Shown: piece by piece, positions 15,249-22,672 of the stretch
How the letters are laid out: each line of letters starts with the position of its first letter
How positions within the stretch are numbered: position 1 is the stretch's first letter
From: Bacteroidales bacterium
GTDB lineage: Bacteria > Bacteroidota > Bacteroidia > Bacteroidales > UBA932
Length of the DNA: 39,696 nt
Reading direction: 5' to 3'
NCBI GenBank assembly: GCA_017438975.1
Contig: JAFRUH010000001.1
Span: 1 to 39,696, forward strand
Notes under the pieces: generated by a model
Told to the model about the DNA's origin: nothing
Seen by the model: the letters and a program-made list of their open reading frames with translations, nothing else
The model's database searches: none
Position numbers and translations under genes: made by a program

Positions 15249-18200
15249 TCACCATCTTCCGCCGGGACCTCCGCCACCGCTTCCGCCGCTGTAGGAGCTG
15301 AGGGAGACGGACGATCCGCCGGATATTCCCGAAGTCGCCCAGATTCCGTTGGCATATGTCGCGCTTCCCACGCTGACGCCCTTATAACCCTTGGAAAGGG
15401 ACGGGGCGGAAACCACGACACTGGACACCCCGGAAGGAGCCTTGAAAGCGGCGATGAAGGAACTGCCGGAAGAAAGCGCATTCCAGTTCCCGGCCGTACA
15501 ACTCATGCTGTAAACGGATTGGGAAGCGGAATAGCCTCTTTCCAGCCCGCCATAAGCCACGACGGTCGCGCCGCTGTTGATATAAAGCTTGTACCCGCTC
15601 TCCGTGTTGGCGTCCAGCGCGACCTCGGGGCTGCCTTTGGTCGTAACGGCAAAGACATAACCGCCGGAAAATTTCATATCGTGATTCGCGTCCATCGCAT
15701 CGTTTGCCGAGGAATAGGCATAGAGATAGCCGCCGCTGACATTCAGTTCCGCCTGGGCGTTGATGGCATCGTCCCCCGTCGAAGAAACATAGGTCTCCCC
15801 TCCCGTGAACACCATATTCCCCTTGGATTCAATTCCTTCGCTTTTCGAGCAACTGACGGTGATCTTCCCGCCGCTGATTTTCAGGTTCCCGGCGTATCCC
15901 GTGACCTTGGCCCGGTCGCCGCTGCCGCTTTTGGTTACCCAGCCGATCTTGATTCCCTTGGAAGAGACGTCGTTGGACTCCGAGCCTGTCGTCTTTATGG
16001 TCAGGGAACCCCCGGAAATATAACTGTCCGCGACCGCATGGGTCTGGCTGTCATAATCATAGCTGCCGGCGCTGATGCCCTTGCCGCCGTTGCCGGTATT
16101 CGTGATGGCCAGGACTCCTCCGGTCATGGCGAAATAATTGTCCGCCTTGATGCCTGCCGAACCCTTGTATTCCGCCTCCTCGCTGTCATAAGCGACGCCC
16201 CCGCTGACCGTGATGGTCGAGGTTCCGCCTTCGACGAGCACATAATCATCGGACCCGATGCCCTTTTTCATGGCCGCCTTGGTCGTGATGTCCAGGGTTC
16301 CGTTGCTGATTCGGACATATTCCTTGCCCCGGACCCCATGACCGGCACCGGTTCCCGCCACGACCCTGACGGTCGGACCGGACATGAACCGGACATAATC
16401 GTCCGAGACGATGCCGGACTTCGACTTGGCATTGTCGGCATTGACGGTCAGGGTGCCGTTTCCGCTGAAAAGGAGCTGTCCTTCGCTGAAAAAGACGCCC
16501 TTCATATCCGTGTCCCCGGTGGTCGAATAGGCGGCGGAGGAACTGTCTGACAGCGTGTTCGAACCCTCCACGAAGACGAATGTGCGCTTGCCGCTCTGGT
16601 TGTTGATGGCGGCGCCCGTCCTGCTGGTGATCGAAACCCCGCTCAGCCAGACCGCCTGCTTTTTCGAACTGCTTAGCGTAAAGGAGCCGTCCGCCGTCGT
16701 TCCCGTCAGTTTGTATACGATACATTCCGAACCGGAATTCGAAACGGTGACATGGTTCCCGCTGACCGAGACGGAAAGGTCGGAAGAGGCTCCCTTCACG
16801 GCCGCTTCCCCACCTGTGGAATAGGTCACCGTGACCATCCTCGTAAAGATCGTATTCGCGATGTCGTCTTCCGAAGACGGATCCCCCGCCGATGCGAAGG
16901 TATAGACCCCCGCCCCTTCATCCACCGCGTTGACGACTTTCAAGGTGTAGGACGCGGAGGCGGCCATATAGACGCCATTCCCTTCAAAGATCGCTGAAAT
17001 CGTTGTCGTTCCCGCTCCGGCGAGGGTGACGGCTCCGTTTGCGTCGATGGCGGCGACGGCCGGATCGGAAGAAGTATAGACCGGGACGACCGGTGCTCCT
17101 GCCGGATTGACCGTCAGGGTCGGGAACCGGTTCTCTTCGGAGCCGAGGGTCGCTGTACAGCCGCTTTCACTCCAAGTCAGTGAAACCGATGCCTTGCTGA
17201 CCGTCAAAGTATAGAAGGCGCTGCCTGCAGCATACGTATCCGTCGCTTCGGAGGAAACGGTAATGGTCGTCGTTCCGGCGCCCACGAGGGAGACGGTCCC
17301 GTCGGAGGCGACGGTCGCGACAGCCGGCGATGAAGAGGCATATGAAACGGCCAGGCCATACGGATTGGAAAGAACGGGGGACGGGAAGGGACTGCCCATC
17401 GTCGCACTGTATCCGGTCGCCGGCCAGGCCAGGTCGGCGCTCTTCAGGCTCACCCCTTTTTCATCGACCGTCAGCGTATAGGACACACTGGCAGAGACAT
17501 GGGTACTGCTCTCTTCGGAGGTCGCCGTGATAATCGTAGTCCCCGCCGACTTCAGAGTTACGACTCCGTCGGTTCCGATGGCGGCCACGCTTTCATTGCT
17601 GGACGAGAAGGAAACAGCCTGCTTTCCGGGATTGACGAGGGTCGGGAAGGTGTTGTCCGTTCCCCCGATCGTTGCCGAGCAACTGTCCATGGACCAGGAA
17701 ATGCCTTGATCGCTCTTCGAGACCGTCAGGGTATAGGATACGCTTTCCGCTTCGTATACAGCCGTTTCCTCGGTGGAGGCCGTAATGACGGCCGTCCCGT
17801 CGGATTTGACCGTAACGGTCCCCCGGGCATCAACAGACGCTACGCTTTCGTCGCTGGAAGAGTATGTAACCGCCAGATCGTGGGGGTTGCTGAGTGTCGG
17901 AAGGAGATAGTCTCCTCCTATGATAATCTCGGCGCTTGCGGCGGACCATGAGAGTCCGGACCCGCCTCTTGCGACGGTCAGCGCATAAGAGACGCTGGCG
18001 GCCTCATACGTATCCGTCCGGGCGGAAGAGGCCGTTACGACGGTCGTTCCCGCTCCGGCGAGGGTGACGGCTCCGTTTGCGTCGACGACGGCGACGGCGG
18101 GATCGGAAGAGGTGTAGGTTACCGTTACGCCAAATTGATTGGACAGGGTCGGAAAGGTGTTTTCCGACCCCAGGACGGCCTTGCAGACCGTTTCGCTCCA

Positions 18201-18326
18201 AGATAGTTTCGGATCGGCCAGGGACGTGGACGGCTCTCCGTCCGTCGGTATCTCAATGGGTTCAATCAAGTCTCCGGAGCAGCCCCAGAGCGCCAATGCG
18301 GCGATGGGAATCAGTATCTTATTCAT
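15249..18326 (-). CDS. Surface lipoprotein: five Ig-like (Big_2) repeats plus DUF4353 beta-helix
   Basis: A 1025-residue protein. The ATG at 18324-18326 is chosen: it follows a GGAGGT site and gives a lipoprotein signal peptide (lipobox LWGCSG). Five repeats of about 80 residues fill roughly residues 35-450; each has a Trp-containing start (LSWSE), a YTSSDPAVAVVD-type strand and an AGAGTTVVTASS strand, as in bacterial Ig-like Big_2 domains. The remainder is a right-handed beta-helix of the DUF4353/Cthe_2159 type, with repeats such as GIGSDDYVLVEGGTSTITVS and SGGYLYAYSSANDAMDAN. That family binds polysaccharides such as pectin or cellulose. The C-terminus is a GGSGGGGPGGRW tail. It should sit on the cell surface. 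It is divergent from a LytS/LytTR pair and just upstream of the VTC/DUF4956 operon. Confidence 0.85.
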   Translation of the reverse strand: MNKILIPIAALALWGCSGDLIEPIEIPTDGEPSTSLADPKLSWSETVCKAVLGSENTFPTLSNQFGVTVTYTSSDPAVAVVDANGAVTLAGAGTTVVTASSARTDTYEAASVSYALTVARGGSGLSWSAASAEIIIGGDYLLPTLSNPHDLAVTYSSSDESVASVDARGTVTVKSDGTAVITASTEETAVYEAESVSYTLTVSKSDQGISWSMDSCSATIGGTDNTFPTLVNPGKQAVSFSSSNESVAAIGTDGVVTLKSAGTTIITATSEESSTHVSASVSYTLTVDEKGVSLKSADLAWPATGYSATMGSPFPSPVLSNPYGLAVSYASSSPAVATVASDGTVSLVGAGTTTITVSSEATDTYAAGSAFYTLTVSKASVSLTWSESGCTATLGSEENRFPTLTVNPAGAPVVPVYTSSDPAVAAIDANGAVTLAGAGTTTISAIFEGNGVYMAASASYTLKVVNAVDEGAGVYTFASAGDPSSEDDIANTIFTRMVTVTYSTGGEAAVKGASSDLSVSVSGNHVTVSNSGSECIVYKLTGTTADGSFTLSSSKKQAVWLSGVSITSRTGAAINNQSGKRTFVFVEGSNTLSDSSSAAYSTTGDTDMKGVFFSEGQLLFSGNGTLTVNADNAKSKSGIVSDDYVRFMSGPTVRVVAGTGAGHGVRGKEYVRISNGTLDITTKAAMKKGIGSDDYVLVEGGTSTITVSGGVAYDSEEAEYKGSAGIKADNYFAMTGGVLAITNTGNGGKGISAGSYDYDSQTHAVADSYISGGSLTIKTTGSESNDVSSKGIKIGWVTKSGSGDRAKVTGYAGNLKISGGKITVSCSKSEGIESKGNMVFTGGETYVSSTGDDAINAQAELNVSGGYLYAYSSANDAMDANHDMKFSGGYVFAVTTKGSPEVALDANTESGYKLYINSGATVVAYGGLERGYSASQSVYSMSCTAGNWNALSSGSSFIAAFKAPSGVSSVVVSAPSLSKGYKGVSVGSATYANGIWATSGISGGSSVSLSSYSGGSGGGGPGGRW

Positions 18327-18330
18327 TTTT

Positions 18331-18336
18331 ACCTCC
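18331..18336 (-). promoter_or_regulatory. Strong Shine-Dalgarno site GGAGGT, rare in this window
   Basis: GGAGGT ends 4 nt before the ATG at 18326 of the surface lipoprotein. Most other genes here show no such site, so this start may be translated more strongly or in a different way. Confidence 0.7.
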
Positions 18337-18349
18337 CGTTCAGTTTCCT

Positions 18350-18357
18350 GAAAGATA
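18350..18357 (-). promoter_or_regulatory. -7 promoter box TATCTTTC of the surface lipoprotein
   Basis: TATCTTTC on the minus strand matches TAnnTTTG at seven of eight positions. Transcription should start near 18343, leaving a leader of about 17 nt that holds the GGAGGT site. No TTTG is visible at -33, which suits a promoter that needs an activator. Confidence 0.6.
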
Positions 18358-18386
18358 AGCAATTCGCCGGCCATCGGAGAAGTTAT

Positions 18387-18467: not shown

Positions 18468-19646
18468 ATGAAACACATGGAAAAAGAAACCCGGCAAGAA
18501 AACATCTTCTATCTGATCCTGTGGACACTTATCTTTGCAGCCGCTCCCGTCCGGCTGCTGTTCCGCTGGCTCTCAGGGCATTCCCTGACCTTCGGTGCCA
18601 AGGAGATGATATCGGCATGGCTCGCCATCCTTCCGTTCCTTGCCCTGTTCCTGATCCATAATTTCCTGATCGCACCCCAGCTGATCAAAAAGCGCCGGAC
18701 CGCCCTCTACCTCGCTCTTCTCTCCGTCCTCCTGGTCGCTTTCGGTTCCTTCATTTTCCTGAGCCACAACAATTTCTCCAGGCAGGGCCATCCCCTCCCG
18801 CCTCCGCAGAAGCATATCCACGCCGACGCCCCGGAAAGAAGACCCGTTCCGGAAAGAGGACCGGCTCCAGAAATGCGGCAGAGGCAGGGAGACCCCGGGA
18901 AGAGACCGGGAAGGCCCGGAGGAGAACCTCCCATGAGACCGGAAACGATGAAAATCATCATGGGAATCCTGCTGATCGGGGCGAACCTCGGAGCCAAATT
19001 CTTCTTCGAAGCCAGGCGCGGGGAACGGCGGATGGAACTTCTGAAAACGGAGCACCTCCACAACCGGCTGGAATCCCTCCGCTACCAGATCAACCCGCAC
19101 TTTTTCATGAACACCCTCAACAACATCCACGCCCTCGTGGACATCGATCCCGATAAGGCGAAGGAGAGCATCGAGGAGTTCTCGAAACTGATGCGGTTCG
19201 TCCTCTACGACGGAGACCGTCCGACCATCCCCCTCGCCCGGGAACTGGAATACCTCGACCATTATATCTCCCTGATGCGCATCCGCTATGCGGATTCGGT
19301 CCGGATTTCAGCGGCGTTCCCGGCAGAAACGGCCGATGAACAGATTCCACCCCTTCTGCTGGCCTCCTTCGTCGAGAATGCCTTCAAGCATGGGGTCAGC
19401 TATGAGCGGGAATCTTTCATCGAAGTCGGTGTCACCCTGGGTGACGGGATGATCCGCTTCTCCTGCGAGAACAGCCGGCAGGGCGCCGAACAGCAGCGGA
19501 AACATGGAATCGGACTTGCCAATGTCCGTCAGCGGCTGGACCTGCTGTATGGCGGAAACTACACCCTTGAAATACAGGAAAAACCTACAACCTACAGTAT
19601 TTGTCTGCAACTGCCGGCGGCTCCACCTGATCATCACGAACTATGA
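18468..19646 (+). CDS. LytS-type sensor histidine kinase (His_kinase family)
   Basis: A 392-residue inner-membrane kinase. Hydrophobic segments lie at about 13-32, 48-68, 79-98 and 161-180. Between the last two is a predicted periplasmic loop of about 60 residues, very rich in Pro, Arg and His (GHPLPPPQKHIHADAPE), the likely sensing part. The catalytic half has the LytS-type phospho-acceptor motif RYQINPHFFMNTLNNIHAL (H211), then LLLASFVENAFKHGV (ATP-binding N-box) and HGIGLANVRQRLDLLYG. The kinase should phosphorylate the LytTR regulator encoded next, with which it overlaps as ATGA. The signal sensed is unknown. Divergence from the large surface lipoprotein suggests an envelope or surface cue. 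Confidence 0.9.
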   Translation: MKHMEKETRQENIFYLILWTLIFAAAPVRLLFRWLSGHSLTFGAKEMISAWLAILPFLALFLIHNFLIAPQLIKKRRTALYLALLSVLLVAFGSFIFLSHNNFSRQGHPLPPPQKHIHADAPERRPVPERGPAPEMRQRQGDPGKRPGRPGGEPPMRPETMKIIMGILLIGANLGAKFFFEARRGERRMELLKTEHLHNRLESLRYQINPHFFMNTLNNIHALVDIDPDKAKESIEEFSKLMRFVLYDGDRPTIPLARELEYLDHYISLMRIRYADSVRISAAFPAETADEQIPPLLLASFVENAFKHGVSYERESFIEVGVTLGDGMIRFSCENSRQGAEQQRKHGIGLANVRQRLDLLYGGNYTLEIQEKPTTYSICLQLPAAPPDHHEL

Positions 19647-20332
19647 TACGCATTCTTCTCATAGATGATGAGCCGCTGGCTCTCAGGCAGTTGGAGATGT
19701 ATGTCTCGAAAGTGCCTTTCCTCGAGCGAGTCGCATCCTGCCATAGCGCGGCGGCAGCCGTCCCATTTCTGGACAAGACCGACGCAATGCTGGTGGACAT
19801 CAATATGCCGGACCTTTCCGGACTCGATTTCGTGCGGTCCCTGGAGCGGCCTCCCCTGTTCATCTTTACAACGGCTTATTCGGAATTCGCCCTGGAAGGA
19901 TTCCGGGTCAATGCCGTCGACTATCTCCTGAAGCCATTCAGCTTCAATGAATTCCTCACTTCCATGGAACGGCTGAAGGAGCGGTTTGAGATGATGCGTG
20001 CAACCTCGCCCGAGATGGAAATCCTGTCCTTCCGGACCGACCGTCGGACGGTTCTCGTCTCTCCGGACACGATCCGGTATGTCGAGAGCATGAGCGAGTA
20101 TATCAAGGTCCATCTGTCCGACACTCCGGAACCGCTCGTCGTCCTCTACAGCCTTCGCCGCCTCTCCGAGCAGCTCCCTTCCGACCGTTTCCTCCGGATC
20201 CACCGTTCCTACCTGGTCAACCTGTCCCGGATCCGTTCCGCCGGCACGGGCTCCGTCATTCTCGACGACGGCACCCAGCTCCCCGTCAGCGACCTCTACC
20301 GCCCCGCCCTCAAAGCCTTCCTTAAAGGTTGA
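19643..20332 (+). CDS. LytTR-family response regulator
   Basis: A 229-residue protein. Residues 1-120 form a receiver domain: acidic pair D9-D10-containing LIDDEP, phospho-acceptor D52 in MLVDINMPD, TT in FIFTTAYSE, and K97 in DYLLKPFS. Residues about 128-229 form a LytTR DNA-binding domain (DTIRYVESMSEYIKVHLSD, then FLRIHRSYLVNL and LPVSDLYRPALKAF). LytTR regulators bind direct repeats of about 9-10 bp with a 21-bp period, and such a repeat lies at 18387-18417 upstream of this operon. It is therefore likely to regulate itself and the divergent lipoprotein. Its stop at 20330-20332 is 6 bp before the 107-bp repeat at 20339. Confidence 0.92.
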   Translation: MIRILLIDDEPLALRQLEMYVSKVPFLERVASCHSAAAAVPFLDKTDAMLVDINMPDLSGLDFVRSLERPPLFIFTTAYSEFALEGFRVNAVDYLLKPFSFNEFLTSMERLKERFEMMRATSPEMEILSFRTDRRTVLVSPDTIRYVESMSEYIKVHLSDTPEPLVVLYSLRRLSEQLPSDRFLRIHRSYLVNLSRIRSAGTGSVILDDGTQLPVSDLYRPALKAFLKG

Positions 20333-20338
20333 TTCGCC

Positions 20339-20445
20339 GTGCTGCATAACTATCTGTCTTCCAGATAATAACTTCATTGAGGGGCCCTTCCTCCAAGGTC
20401 CCTACTATATGTGATTTTACTCATTATCAATACGTTACGAAGCAC
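20339..20445 (+). repeat. Left 107-bp structured repeat beside the RAYT gene
   Basis: It aligns without gaps to 21518-21624 (71 of 107 positions by hand count). Its ends, GTGCTGCATAAC and GTTACGAAGCAC, pair at 10 of 12 positions. Inside are a small hairpin (TATCTG-TCTTC-CAGATA, 20351-20367), a central hairpin with arms 20380-20386 and 20397-20403, then 12 nt and the invariant TTTACTCATTATCAA (20416-20430). It is in the same orientation as the transposase gene. Confidence 0.85.
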
Positions 20446-20544
20446 AGATTGTTGTTGCTAGGCGGGCGGGCGCGAAACAGCCGGGGAGGACTTGGAGATT
20501 TCCAAACTTTTATCGACCTTTGACGAAACTTGAAAAACTTCTTT
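20446..20544 (+). other. Leader region of the RAYT gene
   Basis: This 99-bp stretch holds a GGCGGGCGGGCGCG run (20461-20474) and the short palindrome TTGGA-GATT-TCCAA (about 20492-20505). GACCTTTG at 20515-20522 is a weak match to the -7 consensus. No gene was recognised. Confidence 0.35.
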
Positions 20545-21471
20545 ATGAGACCTGCACGAAATCTCTTCGAAGAGGAAGAACTGATTCACATTTACCAAAA
20601 TACCATAAACGGATCTCTTCTTTTCTATTCAATCAGTGATTATCTGGTTCTTTTATCTCTTATTTCCGTAGCAGCCCGCAGTTGCGGGATCTCTGTGATC
20701 TGCCTGTGTATCATGATCGATCACATCCACCTTCTCATCCATGTCGCTGACAGAAAAACACTGGAACGATTTGTCATGCTGTACACATCACCTTTTGTCC
20801 GCTTGTACAATACCTCGTCCGGGCGGGCGGGACCCTTGTTTCATTCTCCCTTCGGATGGTCAGTAAAAACCGGATTCAAAAAAATCAGAACAGCAATCGC
20901 ATACAATCTGAATAATCCGGTCGAAAAGAAACTTTGCAAAAAAGCGGAAGATTATCCCTGGAATTTCCTCGCTTATGGTTCCTCCTCACATCCTTTTTCT
21001 ATGCCTCTGGTAAAAAGCCACGCCTCACAGCCCCTCAGAAAGGCCTGCCGGATCATCGATGCATTCTACAACCGGGGAGAAGCCATCAACTATGCCCTCC
21101 TCCAAACAATCTCCACAAAACTGGACAATGAAGAAAAGAAACAGCTGACCGACTATGTCATCCGAAAATACAACCCCATTGATTACAAGAGTCTGATTGG
21201 ATATTATGGAAGTATCTCATCACTTCTGACGGCAGTCCATTCGAATACTGGCAGCGAATACGATATCCGTGAGGATACTCTGGGGGGAGATGATACCGTC
21301 TACCGGAGAATAACAACCTTTTTCCTCAAAGAAAGAATCCTTGATAATCTCAAATGTATTCCGGGACTTCCTGAAGGAGAAAGAAGGAAACTACTATCCC
21401 TCATTCTGACCCATGTTCCCGCCGTCAAGAAAAAACAAGCCGCAAAATATCTTCATCTGCCGTTCCCGTGA
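20545..21471 (+). CDS. RAYT-type (REP-associated tyrosine transposase, Y1/HUH) protein
   Basis: A 308-residue protein from the ATG at 20545; an in-frame TTG lies at 20530. The N-terminal half is a Y1-transposase-like domain. The metal-binding HUH motif appears as MIDHIHLLIHV, and the likely catalytic tyrosine is in IAYNLNNPVEK, matching the Y-x-x-NPV pattern of REP-associated transposases. The C-terminal half has a possible helix-turn-helix near the end (VPAVKKKQAAKYLHLPFP). Such enzymes cut single-stranded hairpin repeats; they are often single-copy and domesticated. Base use is clearly more AT-rich than in neighbouring genes, suggesting separate origin. It lies between two direct 107-bp repeats, which are its probable substrates. 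Confidence 0.85.
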   Translation: MRPARNLFEEEELIHIYQNTINGSLLFYSISDYLVLLSLISVAARSCGISVICLCIMIDHIHLLIHVADRKTLERFVMLYTSPFVRLYNTSSGRAGPLFHSPFGWSVKTGFKKIRTAIAYNLNNPVEKKLCKKAEDYPWNFLAYGSSSHPFSMPLVKSHASQPLRKACRIIDAFYNRGEAINYALLQTISTKLDNEEKKQLTDYVIRKYNPIDYKSLIGYYGSISSLLTAVHSNTGSEYDIREDTLGGDDTVYRRITTFFLKERILDNLKCIPGLPEGERRKLLSLILTHVPAVKKKQAAKYLHLPFP

Positions 21472-21517
21472 ACCCTTGTCAGCAAAGGCCTCCTGACCGG
21501 GACAAAGGGCACTCCCC

Positions 21518-21624
21518 GTGCCGCTTAACTGTCTATTATTCAAGGAATTGCTTCGCTAAAGGGCCTCTCTTTTCAGGGCCCTTTGATTAACGAATTTACT
21601 CATTATCAACAAGTTAGGCGGCAC
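21518..21624 (+). repeat. Right 107-bp structured repeat beside the RAYT gene
   Basis: This copy lies 46 bp after the transposase stop and ends 13 bp before the galE stop. Its ends, GTGCCGCTTAAC and GTTAGGCGGCAC, pair at all 12 positions with one G-U; the pairing extends by two more G-C pairs to 21516 and 21626. The central hairpin has arms at 21559-21565 and 21577-21582 (plus flanking A/T pairs). The invariant TTTACTCATTATCAA is at 21595-21609. Spacings from the left end (41 nt to the hairpin, 77 nt to the invariant box) equal those of the left copy. Confidence 0.85.
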
Positions 21625-21637
21625 GGCTCTGGCGGAG

Positions 21638-22672
21638 CTACAGGCCGAGGTCATGGAGGTGGCGTTCCCAGGCCCAGGCCGCGGCGAGGGTCTCCTCGAC
21701 GGTGCGCTCGGCTTTCCAGCCCATCTCCTCGTTCGCGAGGGTCGGATCGGCCCAGATCGCGGTCACGTCACCGGCGCGCCGAGGGGCGAACTTGTAATTG
21801 AGTTTCAGGCCATTGACCTTCTCGAAAGCATTGACCAGTTCCAGGACGGAGACAGGCCGGCCCGTGCCAATGTTGAAGACCTCGCAGTCCTCCTTCATCT
21901 TTCCGTCCAGCATCCGGGAAACCGCGGCGACATGGGCCTTGGCGAGGTCCACGATATCGATGTAGTCGCGGAGACAGGTCCCGTCCGGGGTCGGATAGTC
22001 GTTTCCAAAGATCGAGAGGCATTCGCGCTTTCCGATCGCCGTCTGGGTGATGAACGGGACGAGGTTGTTGGGAACTCCCCGCGGGAGCTCGCCGATGAGG
22101 GCGGAGGGATGGGCCCCGATCGGATTGAAATAGCGGAGCAGGATGCCCTTCAGCCTGCCTTCCGAGGCCCTGACGGCATCGCGGAGGATATCCTCGCACA
22201 TCTGTTTGGTATTCCCATAGGGGGACGTCGCGGGTTTGCGGGGCGTCTGCTCGGTAACGGGAACATGGTCCGGTTCCCCGTAGACGGTCGCCGAGGAGGA
22301 GAAGAGGACATTGCATCCACCGGCCTTCTCCGCAGCCTCGAGGACATTCAGGAAGCTCTGGAGGTTGTTCTTATAGTACATCAGGGGTTTCGCCACCGAC
22401 TCGCCGACCGCCTTGAAAGCGGCGAAATGGATCACGGCGTCGATCCGGTTCTCCGCGAAAAGACGCTCCGCAGCCTCGGCGTCGCAGAAGTCCATCTTCA
22501 CGAGCGGAAGGTCTTCCCGGCCCGTTATTTTCTTGACGCCTTCGAAGCAGGTCGTGTCACAGTTGGAGAAATTGTCGGCCACGATAACCTCGTAGCCCGC
22601 CTGGAGGAGTTCCACCGTTACGTGGCTGCCGATGAACCCGGCTCCGCCCGATACCAATACAGTCTTTTTCAT
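21638..22672 (-). CDS. galE: UDP-glucose 4-epimerase
   Basis: A 344-residue protein. The ATG at 22670-22672 is chosen because it puts the NAD-binding motif near the N-terminus (VLVSGGAGFIGSH). Short-chain dehydrogenase catalytic residues appear as SSSATVYG (serine/threonine) and SPYGNTKQ (tyrosine and lysine). Other GalE marks are VADNFSN, HFAAFKAVGESV, LRYFNPIGAHPS, GTCLRDYIDIVDLAKAH and NIGTGRPVSVLELV. It interconverts UDP-glucose and UDP-galactose in the cytoplasm, serving galactose use (compare the GH36 enzyme at 2974-5103) and surface glycan synthesis. Its length is normal for the family. The mRNA leader carries a strong hairpin. Confidence 0.95.
   Translation of the reverse strand: MKKTVLVSGGAGFIGSHVTVELLQAGYEVIVADNFSNCDTTCFEGVKKITGREDLPLVKMDFCDAEAAERLFAENRIDAVIHFAAFKAVGESVAKPLMYYKNNLQSFLNVLEAAEKAGGCNVLFSSSATVYGEPDHVPVTEQTPRKPATSPYGNTKQMCEDILRDAVRASEGRLKGILLRYFNPIGAHPSALIGELPRGVPNNLVPFITQTAIGKRECLSIFGNDYPTPDGTCLRDYIDIVDLAKAHVAAVSRMLDGKMKEDCEVFNIGTGRPVSVLELVNAFEKVNGLKLNYKFAPRRAGDVTAIWADPTLANEEMGWKAERTVEETLAAAWAWERHLHDLGL

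Follow-up and report, generated by a model that had tools for sequence, protein, structure and literature searches.

What is the relationship between a transposase gene in a gut Bacteroidales bacterium and the two folded 107-nt elements that bracket it? The gene is of the RAYT type, and the repeats for which RAYTs are named, REP sequences, are described as imperfect palindromes of 20–40 nt with a 5' GT[AG]G foot (PMC3733652, PMC6006769). The first-pass annotation proposed that the two elements, which are larger than a standard REP, are likely substrates of the RAYT. The copies, covariation and genomic positions reported below support this proposal, and from them we infer the action of the RAYT on the elements. 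The locus is most probably REPtron-like, that is, a RAYT gene between two cognate, non-autonomous REPIN-like units that are mobilised via single-stranded DNA.

The window, by which we mean the whole stretch of 39,696 nt that was analysed, is contig C3 of the host genome (2.8 Mb in 33 contigs). The gene for the RAYT-type HUH/Y1 transposase occupies positions 20545..21471 of the forward strand and encodes 308 aa from the ATG at 20545, in an open reading frame that opens at a TTG at 20530. The 5' element is a REPIN-like folded unit at 20339..20445 (forward strand), and the stop codon that precedes it by 6 nt belongs to a LytTR-type regulator gene. The 3' element has the same architecture and lies at 21518..21624 (forward strand); 13 nt separate its end from the stop codon of a galE-like gene in convergent orientation. 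The names LytTR, galE and sensor kinase come from our reading of the translations. Further upstream, a sensor-kinase-like gene and the LytTR regulator gene form a pair at 18468-20332, which adjoins a gene on the reverse strand (15249-18374) for an exported-looking protein of 1041 aa with repeated Ig-like segments.

Recomputation reproduced the values first given for the pair, namely two 107-nt copies in direct orientation with an ungapped identity of 71/107, the linker motif TTTACTCATTATCAA at offset 77 of both (20416..20430 and 21595..21609, forward strand), and a compensatory change at pair 5 of the outer stem, which is T-A in the left copy and C-G in the right. Both copies have complementary ends, as described. 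The outer stem of the right copy (GTGCCGCTTAAC / GTTAGGCGGCAC) is complete, with 12/12 positions paired as 11 Watson-Crick pairs and one G-T, and that of the left copy (GTGCTGCATAAC / GTTACGAAGCAC) has 10/12 Watson-Crick pairs and leaves positions 6 and 8 unpaired. The central hairpin starts at about offset 41 of the 5' element. After the right copy, the left copy is most similar, in ungapped comparison within the window, to both elements reversed (53/107 and 52/107), because the element is near-palindromic; the best match elsewhere is 46/107.

The assignment of the window gene to the RAYT type holds. Its product matches Pfam Y1_Tnp with an E-value of 4e-5 (24.1 bits, just above the cut-off of 23). 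For NF047646, the NCBIfam model of REP-associated tyrosine transposases, residues 6-136 give an E-value of 9.7e-9 with a score of 35.3 bits, which is below the cut-off of 80. In an alignment of 18 relatives, His57 and His59 of the HUH motif, Tyr117, Asn120 and Asn121 are invariant (18/18; residue numbers follow the frame at 20554-21468 of the window) and most proteins have NP. Y1_Tnp matches all 18 aligned proteins, which thus have the Y1/HUH domain and the Y---N(P) motif of class 2 Y1 transposases. They also share a C-terminal part of ~150 residues, for which a Pfam search found no family matching more than one member. A profile search gives a match to chains of the ISDra2 transposase with an E-value of 0.0017 over 44 residues. 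The structure predicted from four sequences was of low quality (mean pLDDT 62), and a fold search of the PDB returned nothing at an E-value of 0.001, the ISDra2 and IS608 transposases appearing at E-values of 1-3.

At an E-value of 1e-8, homologues were detected in 26 members of a set of 61 genomes; all 26 belong to the genus of the host, which itself carries four (on contigs that include C3, C7, C20 and C28); the other RAYTs of the host are at most ~42% identical to that of the window. A wider contig search added three loci in yak-gut Bacteroidales metagenome-assembled genomes and ten distant ones. In an order-wide sample of 247 genomes, six match the RAYT at an E-value of 1e-15, namely the host, one genome of a sister genus and four genomes of other families, and in the latter five the match covers the Y1 part only.

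We gathered elements beside RAYT genes by their outer inverted repeat and motif; 20 of them, from 13 loci, align almost without gaps, and from these a covariance model, R1, was built. The consensus is a unit of ~105-112 nt in which linkers of ~27 nt connect an outer stem of 12-13 bp to a central hairpin of ~10 bp or more. Searched against the whole host genome, R1, whose seed includes both window copies, scores the 5' element at 63 bits (E-value 9.5e-10) and the 3' element at 84.8 bits (E-value 1.6e-14).

The predicted consensus structure has 24 pairs, 21 of them with double changes. The first-pass annotation had made its reading depend on conservation of the pairing in homologous loci, and covariation is indeed retained there: with a fixed structure of 22 pairs, double changes occur in 19, a mild excess over shuffled alignments (16.7 on average, 26 of 500 shuffles as high). 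Other measures on the 22 pairs separate further from the shuffles, with none of 500 as high in any of them: paired cells amount to 89% where shuffles give 55.7%, cells with double changes number 144 versus 48, and the covariation score is 0.787 versus 0.190. When the partners are slid by 1-3 columns, this score does not exceed 0.234. The outer stem served as a collection criterion for the seed elements, so part of its pairing follows from the selection. The central hairpin, noticed already in the window, did not serve in this way; its 10 pairs are 85% paired and all ten have double changes (20 elements, 13 loci). The first three positions of the model are paired in 86%, 94% and 98% of 84 elements, and positions just outside in 42-46%; this drop means that the element has exact ends. 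Whole elements fold at a mean z of -4.4 relative to shuffles (first 60 of the 84, which had been selected for structure), and half-elements of 42 nt, taken from 60 elements, show no advantage in folding over shuffles (mean z -0.07).

Some features are constant across families: a T-A pair near the end of the outer stem (20/20), an A-T pair at its inner end (20/20) and the pair next to the latter (18/20). A weak, degenerate motif, YTGATTATNAG, occurs in both linkers throughout the genus. The inner-stem AAC/GTT of some copies resembles the attC consensus, as do the length and the logic of a folded single strand, so we considered whether the elements could be integron attC-like sites with the RAYT as a gene cassette. 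AA/TT is nearly constant in the 20 elements but the adjacent base varies; at the loci compared, the sites always enclose a gene of one RAYT family; and the host has no match to the integron integrase model TIGR02249 above its cut-off, the seven weaker matches being of a strength also seen in 14 of 14 control genomes. We therefore rejected the attC reading, which we regard as extremely improbable.

How far such elements are dispersed was then a matter of searching with R1. A plain DNA search of the host with the left copy retrieves, apart from short chance matches, just the two copies of the window. The covariance model finds elements at 31 places of the host genome at E-values up to 0.012, at three weaker places with E-values up to 1 and, in a local scan only, at one more place beside the C28 RAYT; contig C20, which makes up 11% of the assembly, carries 10 of the 31. 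Related genomes contain further copies as well: the model matches 39 of the 52 genus members searched and 1 of 26 genomes from outside the genus. In the first genome set, at an E-value of 0.01, these were 29 of 37 genus genomes, two of which (G002 and G013) have a single weak match each, versus 1 of 24 others; in a further set they were 10 of 15 genus genomes outside the seed, 14 of the 15 having been drawn from 24 newly met ones. A whole-genome scan at the same E-value gave no match to R1 in the two genomes of the sister genus. Because the element is near-palindromic, the model matches both strands, and copies in genomes were counted as strand-matches. In the first set a count of 63 stands for at least 63; in the further set the counts reach 148.

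The median number of strand-matches is 44.5 in 22 genomes with a RAYT of this clade (E < 1e-40) versus 1 in 15 without (p = 5e-5, ignoring kinship), and four of the 15 hold distant matches with E-values of 1e-9 to 1e-11. Two genomes count against a link between RAYT and element: G036 has a RAYT and no elements, and G030, a genome of the same genus that is 97% complete, has at least 63 strand-matches, yet no RAYT of the clade at an E-value of 1e-4. The elements of G030 are possibly orphan repeats or served by another enzyme.

For gene context, genes were called with a simple finder based on codon scores, for which 18 window genes served as the training set. By these calls, 16 of the 35 host matches fall between tandem genes, 11 between convergent and 4 between divergent ones; 3 lie at edges and 1 weak match is inside a frame. 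The median distance is 43 nt for the 40 adjoining 3' ends of genes and 79 nt for the 25 adjoining 5' ends. Thus the elements are mostly intergenic and lean to gene 3' ends, the position that the first-pass annotation had asked about. A conserved fold in such positions, with 11 convergent and 4 divergent sites among 35, is what might be expected of terminators, 3'-end stabilisers or regulators, whose association with RAYT genes would be a by-product. We consider such a role at the RNA level unlikely as the main explanation, since the sequence of a family tracks its RAYT locus, the elements are near-palindromic with model matches on both strands, presence is patchy between related genomes, and Rfam 15, searched over 20200-21800 on both strands, gave seven sub-threshold matches and none at the gathering score. 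A further effect at the RNA level is possible.

The linkage to RAYT genes was assessed at 44 loci, consisting of 41 of 52 homologue rows (11 fragments or distant relatives having been dropped) and 3 of the 13 loci from the wider search. An element lies within 500 nt of the gene at 40 of the 44, on both sides at 23, on the 5' side only at 9 and on the 3' side only at 8, the sides being set by the strand of the RAYT; L028, L173, L174 and L176 are the four loci without an adjacent element. In this count the better-strand match was taken for each place, and places with an E-value above 0.03 in one of the two underlying scans and one place of L164 (1049-1128) were excluded, so that the weakest element counted is that of L021 (E-value 0.028). 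At distant RAYT-like loci an element was found in 0 of 14. The host has six elements beside its four RAYT genes.

The two elements of a locus resemble each other more than they resemble elements elsewhere. When the comparison is restricted to a length of 95 nt or more (36 of the 40 loci and 21 of the 23 two-sided ones), the 5' element has its partner as best match at 19 of the 21 two-element loci and as second match at the other two (L009 and L169), a result reached in none of 10000 permutations, and mean identity is 0.695 between partners versus 0.551 between loci. Over all loci, likeness of the RAYTs and likeness of the elements are related weakly (r = 0.10, with 306 of 5000 permutations as high), which counts against the REPtron-like reading.

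Elements and genes are also joined physically. Nineteen of the 31 nearest 3' elements overlap the end of the RAYT frame, eight of them by exactly 12 nt. In each of these eight, the last three codons of the frame and its stop codon TAA lie in the outer stem, whose inner A-T pairs form the TAA; the tail of the frame inside the stem often starts with CGT (5/8). Two other host genes, at L098 and L116, end likewise, with CGT GAT CGG TAA and CGT GAT TTG TAA. Elements can thus supply the last codons of a gene together with its stop codon.

Such overlaps, often at the stop codon, and the presence of an element on both sides at 23 of 44 loci look as if gene and elements were one unit, and a rival reading is that of a single transposon, as in IS200/IS605, which has the two elements as its ends and moves with the RAYT gene inside; solo elements would then be its remnants or minimal derivatives. 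The relative orientation of the two flanking elements differs among loci, though, and 17 of the 44 loci are one-sided and 4 lack an element. Solo elements outnumber RAYT loci, and the divergence of the host RAYTs (at most ~42% identical) implies that no RAYT-bearing unit was copied recently in the host. The HUH/Y1 enzyme is shared with IS608 and ISDra2, whereas the motif is Y---N(P) (here Y--NN) rather than the Y---Q of class 1 (motif classes as in PMC6006769), solo elements are dispersed and RAYT copies in the host are ~40% identical; the locus is thus not an IS200/IS605 insertion sequence. The alternative raised in the first-pass annotation, that the elements are ends of a single-strand-transposing unit, is unneeded, because most host elements are solo (31 places, six elements beside the four RAYT genes), and we judge the single-transposon reading improbable.

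The data that bear on mobility are comparisons of presence and absence between species. At the LytTR-galE junction, compared in three species, the window has the RAYT with its element pair, G034 has a solo element at the LytTR stop codon and G081 has none, G081 having 78 strand-matches elsewhere. An exact empty site was looked for at this junction and at the host element L106, and none was found; no element lies near the homologous gene in the 17 loci retrieved for L106, and as gene order is not kept there, the comparison shows a difference at the level of species only. Between genes beside galE, L125 (G081) and L131 (G078) carry a different short repeat with a hairpin GATAAAGG..CCTTTATC, which lies at the galE end in both genomes and occurs twice in L131.

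Over 84 elements we found no target duplications of at least 5 nt (5-9 nt). Exact 4-nt repeats number 1, 1 and 0 for three placings of the boundary versus 0.3, 0.8 and 0.7 in shuffles. Some identity over short ranges does exceed that of shuffles. The identity of 3-nt flanks, with one terminal base counted as flank, is 0.413 versus 0.333 shuffled (sd 0.026), and 2-nt flanks, with two terminal bases counted, are identical in 48 cases versus 30.3; we take both excesses as due to palindromic CG/GC ends. At the model boundary, the identity of 8-nt flanks is 0.287 versus 0.247 shuffled (sd 0.016).

The elements fall into families. Thirty full-length elements among the 35 host matches, grouped at 66% identity, form sets of 15, 7, 2 and 2 and four singletons. 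The two elements beside the C20 RAYT gene, which lies at C20:151227-152102, fall in the set of 15. Members of the set of 7 share their arm, GGTGGAG, and their hairpin, CCTCTGGTG, with the element beside the C28 RAYT, which itself falls slightly under the threshold for this set; the element of the C7 RAYT is one of the singletons. The two window copies form a set of their own, whose nearest solo elements, L090, L115:4481 and L083, have similar arms and AGGGG-type hairpins at 60-63% identity. Their similarity suggests membership in the window family but no more, since it barely tops the background between loci (95th percentile 61%). With two copies and at most three weak relatives the family is tiny, and amplification has been slight at this locus.

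Within three families (two of the host and one of G005, with hand-chosen members numbering 9, 8 and 8), mean pairwise identity is 0.71-0.85 in the arms and central hairpin and 0.48-0.60 in the linkers. The earlier statement that the sequence between the ends is free to vary therefore applies to the linkers, which drift, but not to the central hairpin, which, like the arms, is conserved within a family. From this pattern of conservation, arms and central hairpin may be two recognition modules that are re-coded together in each lineage. One G005 family has two neighbouring members (L010, 2446 and 2714) with matching left halves; their central hairpins are exact reverse complements, which hints at template switching or at inversion of the hairpin. 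At L115 4279-4588 (host C20:124278-124587), a gap of ~1.5 kb with no called gene contains two elements from different families, separated by 94 nt.

Comparison with described systems places the locus near several of them. The flanking cognate, dispersed palindromes of a RAYT/TnpA-REP system are present here (40 of 44 loci, 31 host places, 19 of 21 best partners). The elements are not REP sequences: their termini are mostly CGTG, CTGG or GGTGG within the stem, GT[AG]G is not constant, and the halves do not fold alone. They resemble the Pseudomonas REPIN or REP doublet with its RAYT, as described by Bertels and Rainey 2011 (PMC3116915), in having inverted ends round a spacer, a long hairpin and compensatory changes, and in being extragenic and dispersed, a genome having several families that lie near their respective RAYTs. 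Inverted ends and a single hairpin are thus present, but the ends are not REPs; in contrast to REPINs the halves are unfolded alone, no fixed GT[AG]G foot exists, the strongest stem is central, the arms share almost no sequence across families and the element measures 105-112 nt. By analogy in size, symmetry and compensatory change, the element would work like a REPIN, although we do not class it as one.

TnpA-REP subclass 2.6 of the Bacteroidetes (equivalent to group 5 of Bertels) is described by Quentin et al. 2018 (PMC6006769) as having a median length of 179 aa and the motifs NH[LIV]H, WQ and YIH[QN]NP, and as flanked by 'atypical secondary structures' that lack GT[AG]G and have copies elsewhere in the genome. 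The latter is also true of our locus. The proteins studied here differ from this description, however, being ~300 aa long with mostly DHxH, no WQ, YxxNN and a conserved C-terminal part. The atypical structures may be related to the elements reported here.

The TIRtron study is reportedly the work of Di Nocera and co-workers. TIRtrons (or TIRYTs) are RAYT-like genes flanked by non-REP repeats, of which some are double-palindromic and some dispersed (PMC3733652), and the window locus is similar in this respect; TIRtrons have long terminal inverted repeats, with GGGGWSAS in many, whereas each flank here is a complete closed hairpin of an architecture found throughout the genus. In Chryseobacterium, RAYT genes have been reported beside a resistance gene, with no mention of palindromes in the available part of the text (PMC11194056). 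Our literature search, which mainly covered open-access journal papers, found no paper whose title or opening of the abstract describes these elements. RAYTs with dispersed palindromes are known already; the RAYT protein clade and the architecture of the element look new.

In the sister genus, G284 has three more distant RAYTs near palindromes with longer arms of 19-25 nt, some in doublets of ~110 nt. One of these regions (L219 1042-3102) has arms of 19-26 nt (GTGGCACTGATTTTTCTAA) in inverted doublets and extra singles that flank the RAYT in a BIME-like manner. A local scan with R1 at the G284 RAYTs gave two weak matches (E-values 7e-5 and 8e-4) and a third at 0.28. It is only suggestive that the architecture may predate the genus.

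As for mechanism, we infer a single-stranded substrate, recognition, cleavage and current mobility. On the preferred, REPtron-like reading, an element would become single-stranded, for example at a replication fork, and fold into one long imperfect hairpin in which the outer arms seal the ends and the central stem-loop forms. The cognate RAYT would read the folded strand through the family-specific sequence of the arm and central hairpin, and also through the genus-wide features, namely the inner A-T pair and YTGATTATNAG in the linkers. Its HUH/Tyr site would then nick and rejoin single strands, and copies of the unit would be placed elsewhere, mostly between genes, without target duplication. 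We propose tentatively, at somewhat less than even confidence, that the elements form a distinct non-REP class of RAYT-mobilised element, a sealed hairpin in which arms and central stem-loop are both read by the RAYT, perhaps via its C-terminal part.

Bench work on how RAYTs recognise, move and maintain REP-like repeats rests on few pairs, co-evolved recognition having been demonstrated for three TnpA-REP/REP pairs (PMC8266576). This genus supplies ~40 sets of RAYT and element with a single architecture and differing sequences, so that recognition becomes testable by exchange of partners. The covariance model also allows such repeats, which could otherwise be mistaken for ordinary intergenic hairpins, to be found and classified in uncultured gut Bacteroidales. 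If the elements do form a distinct class, the ~40 natural sets would constitute a ready-made specificity code for the recognition of hairpins in single-stranded DNA.
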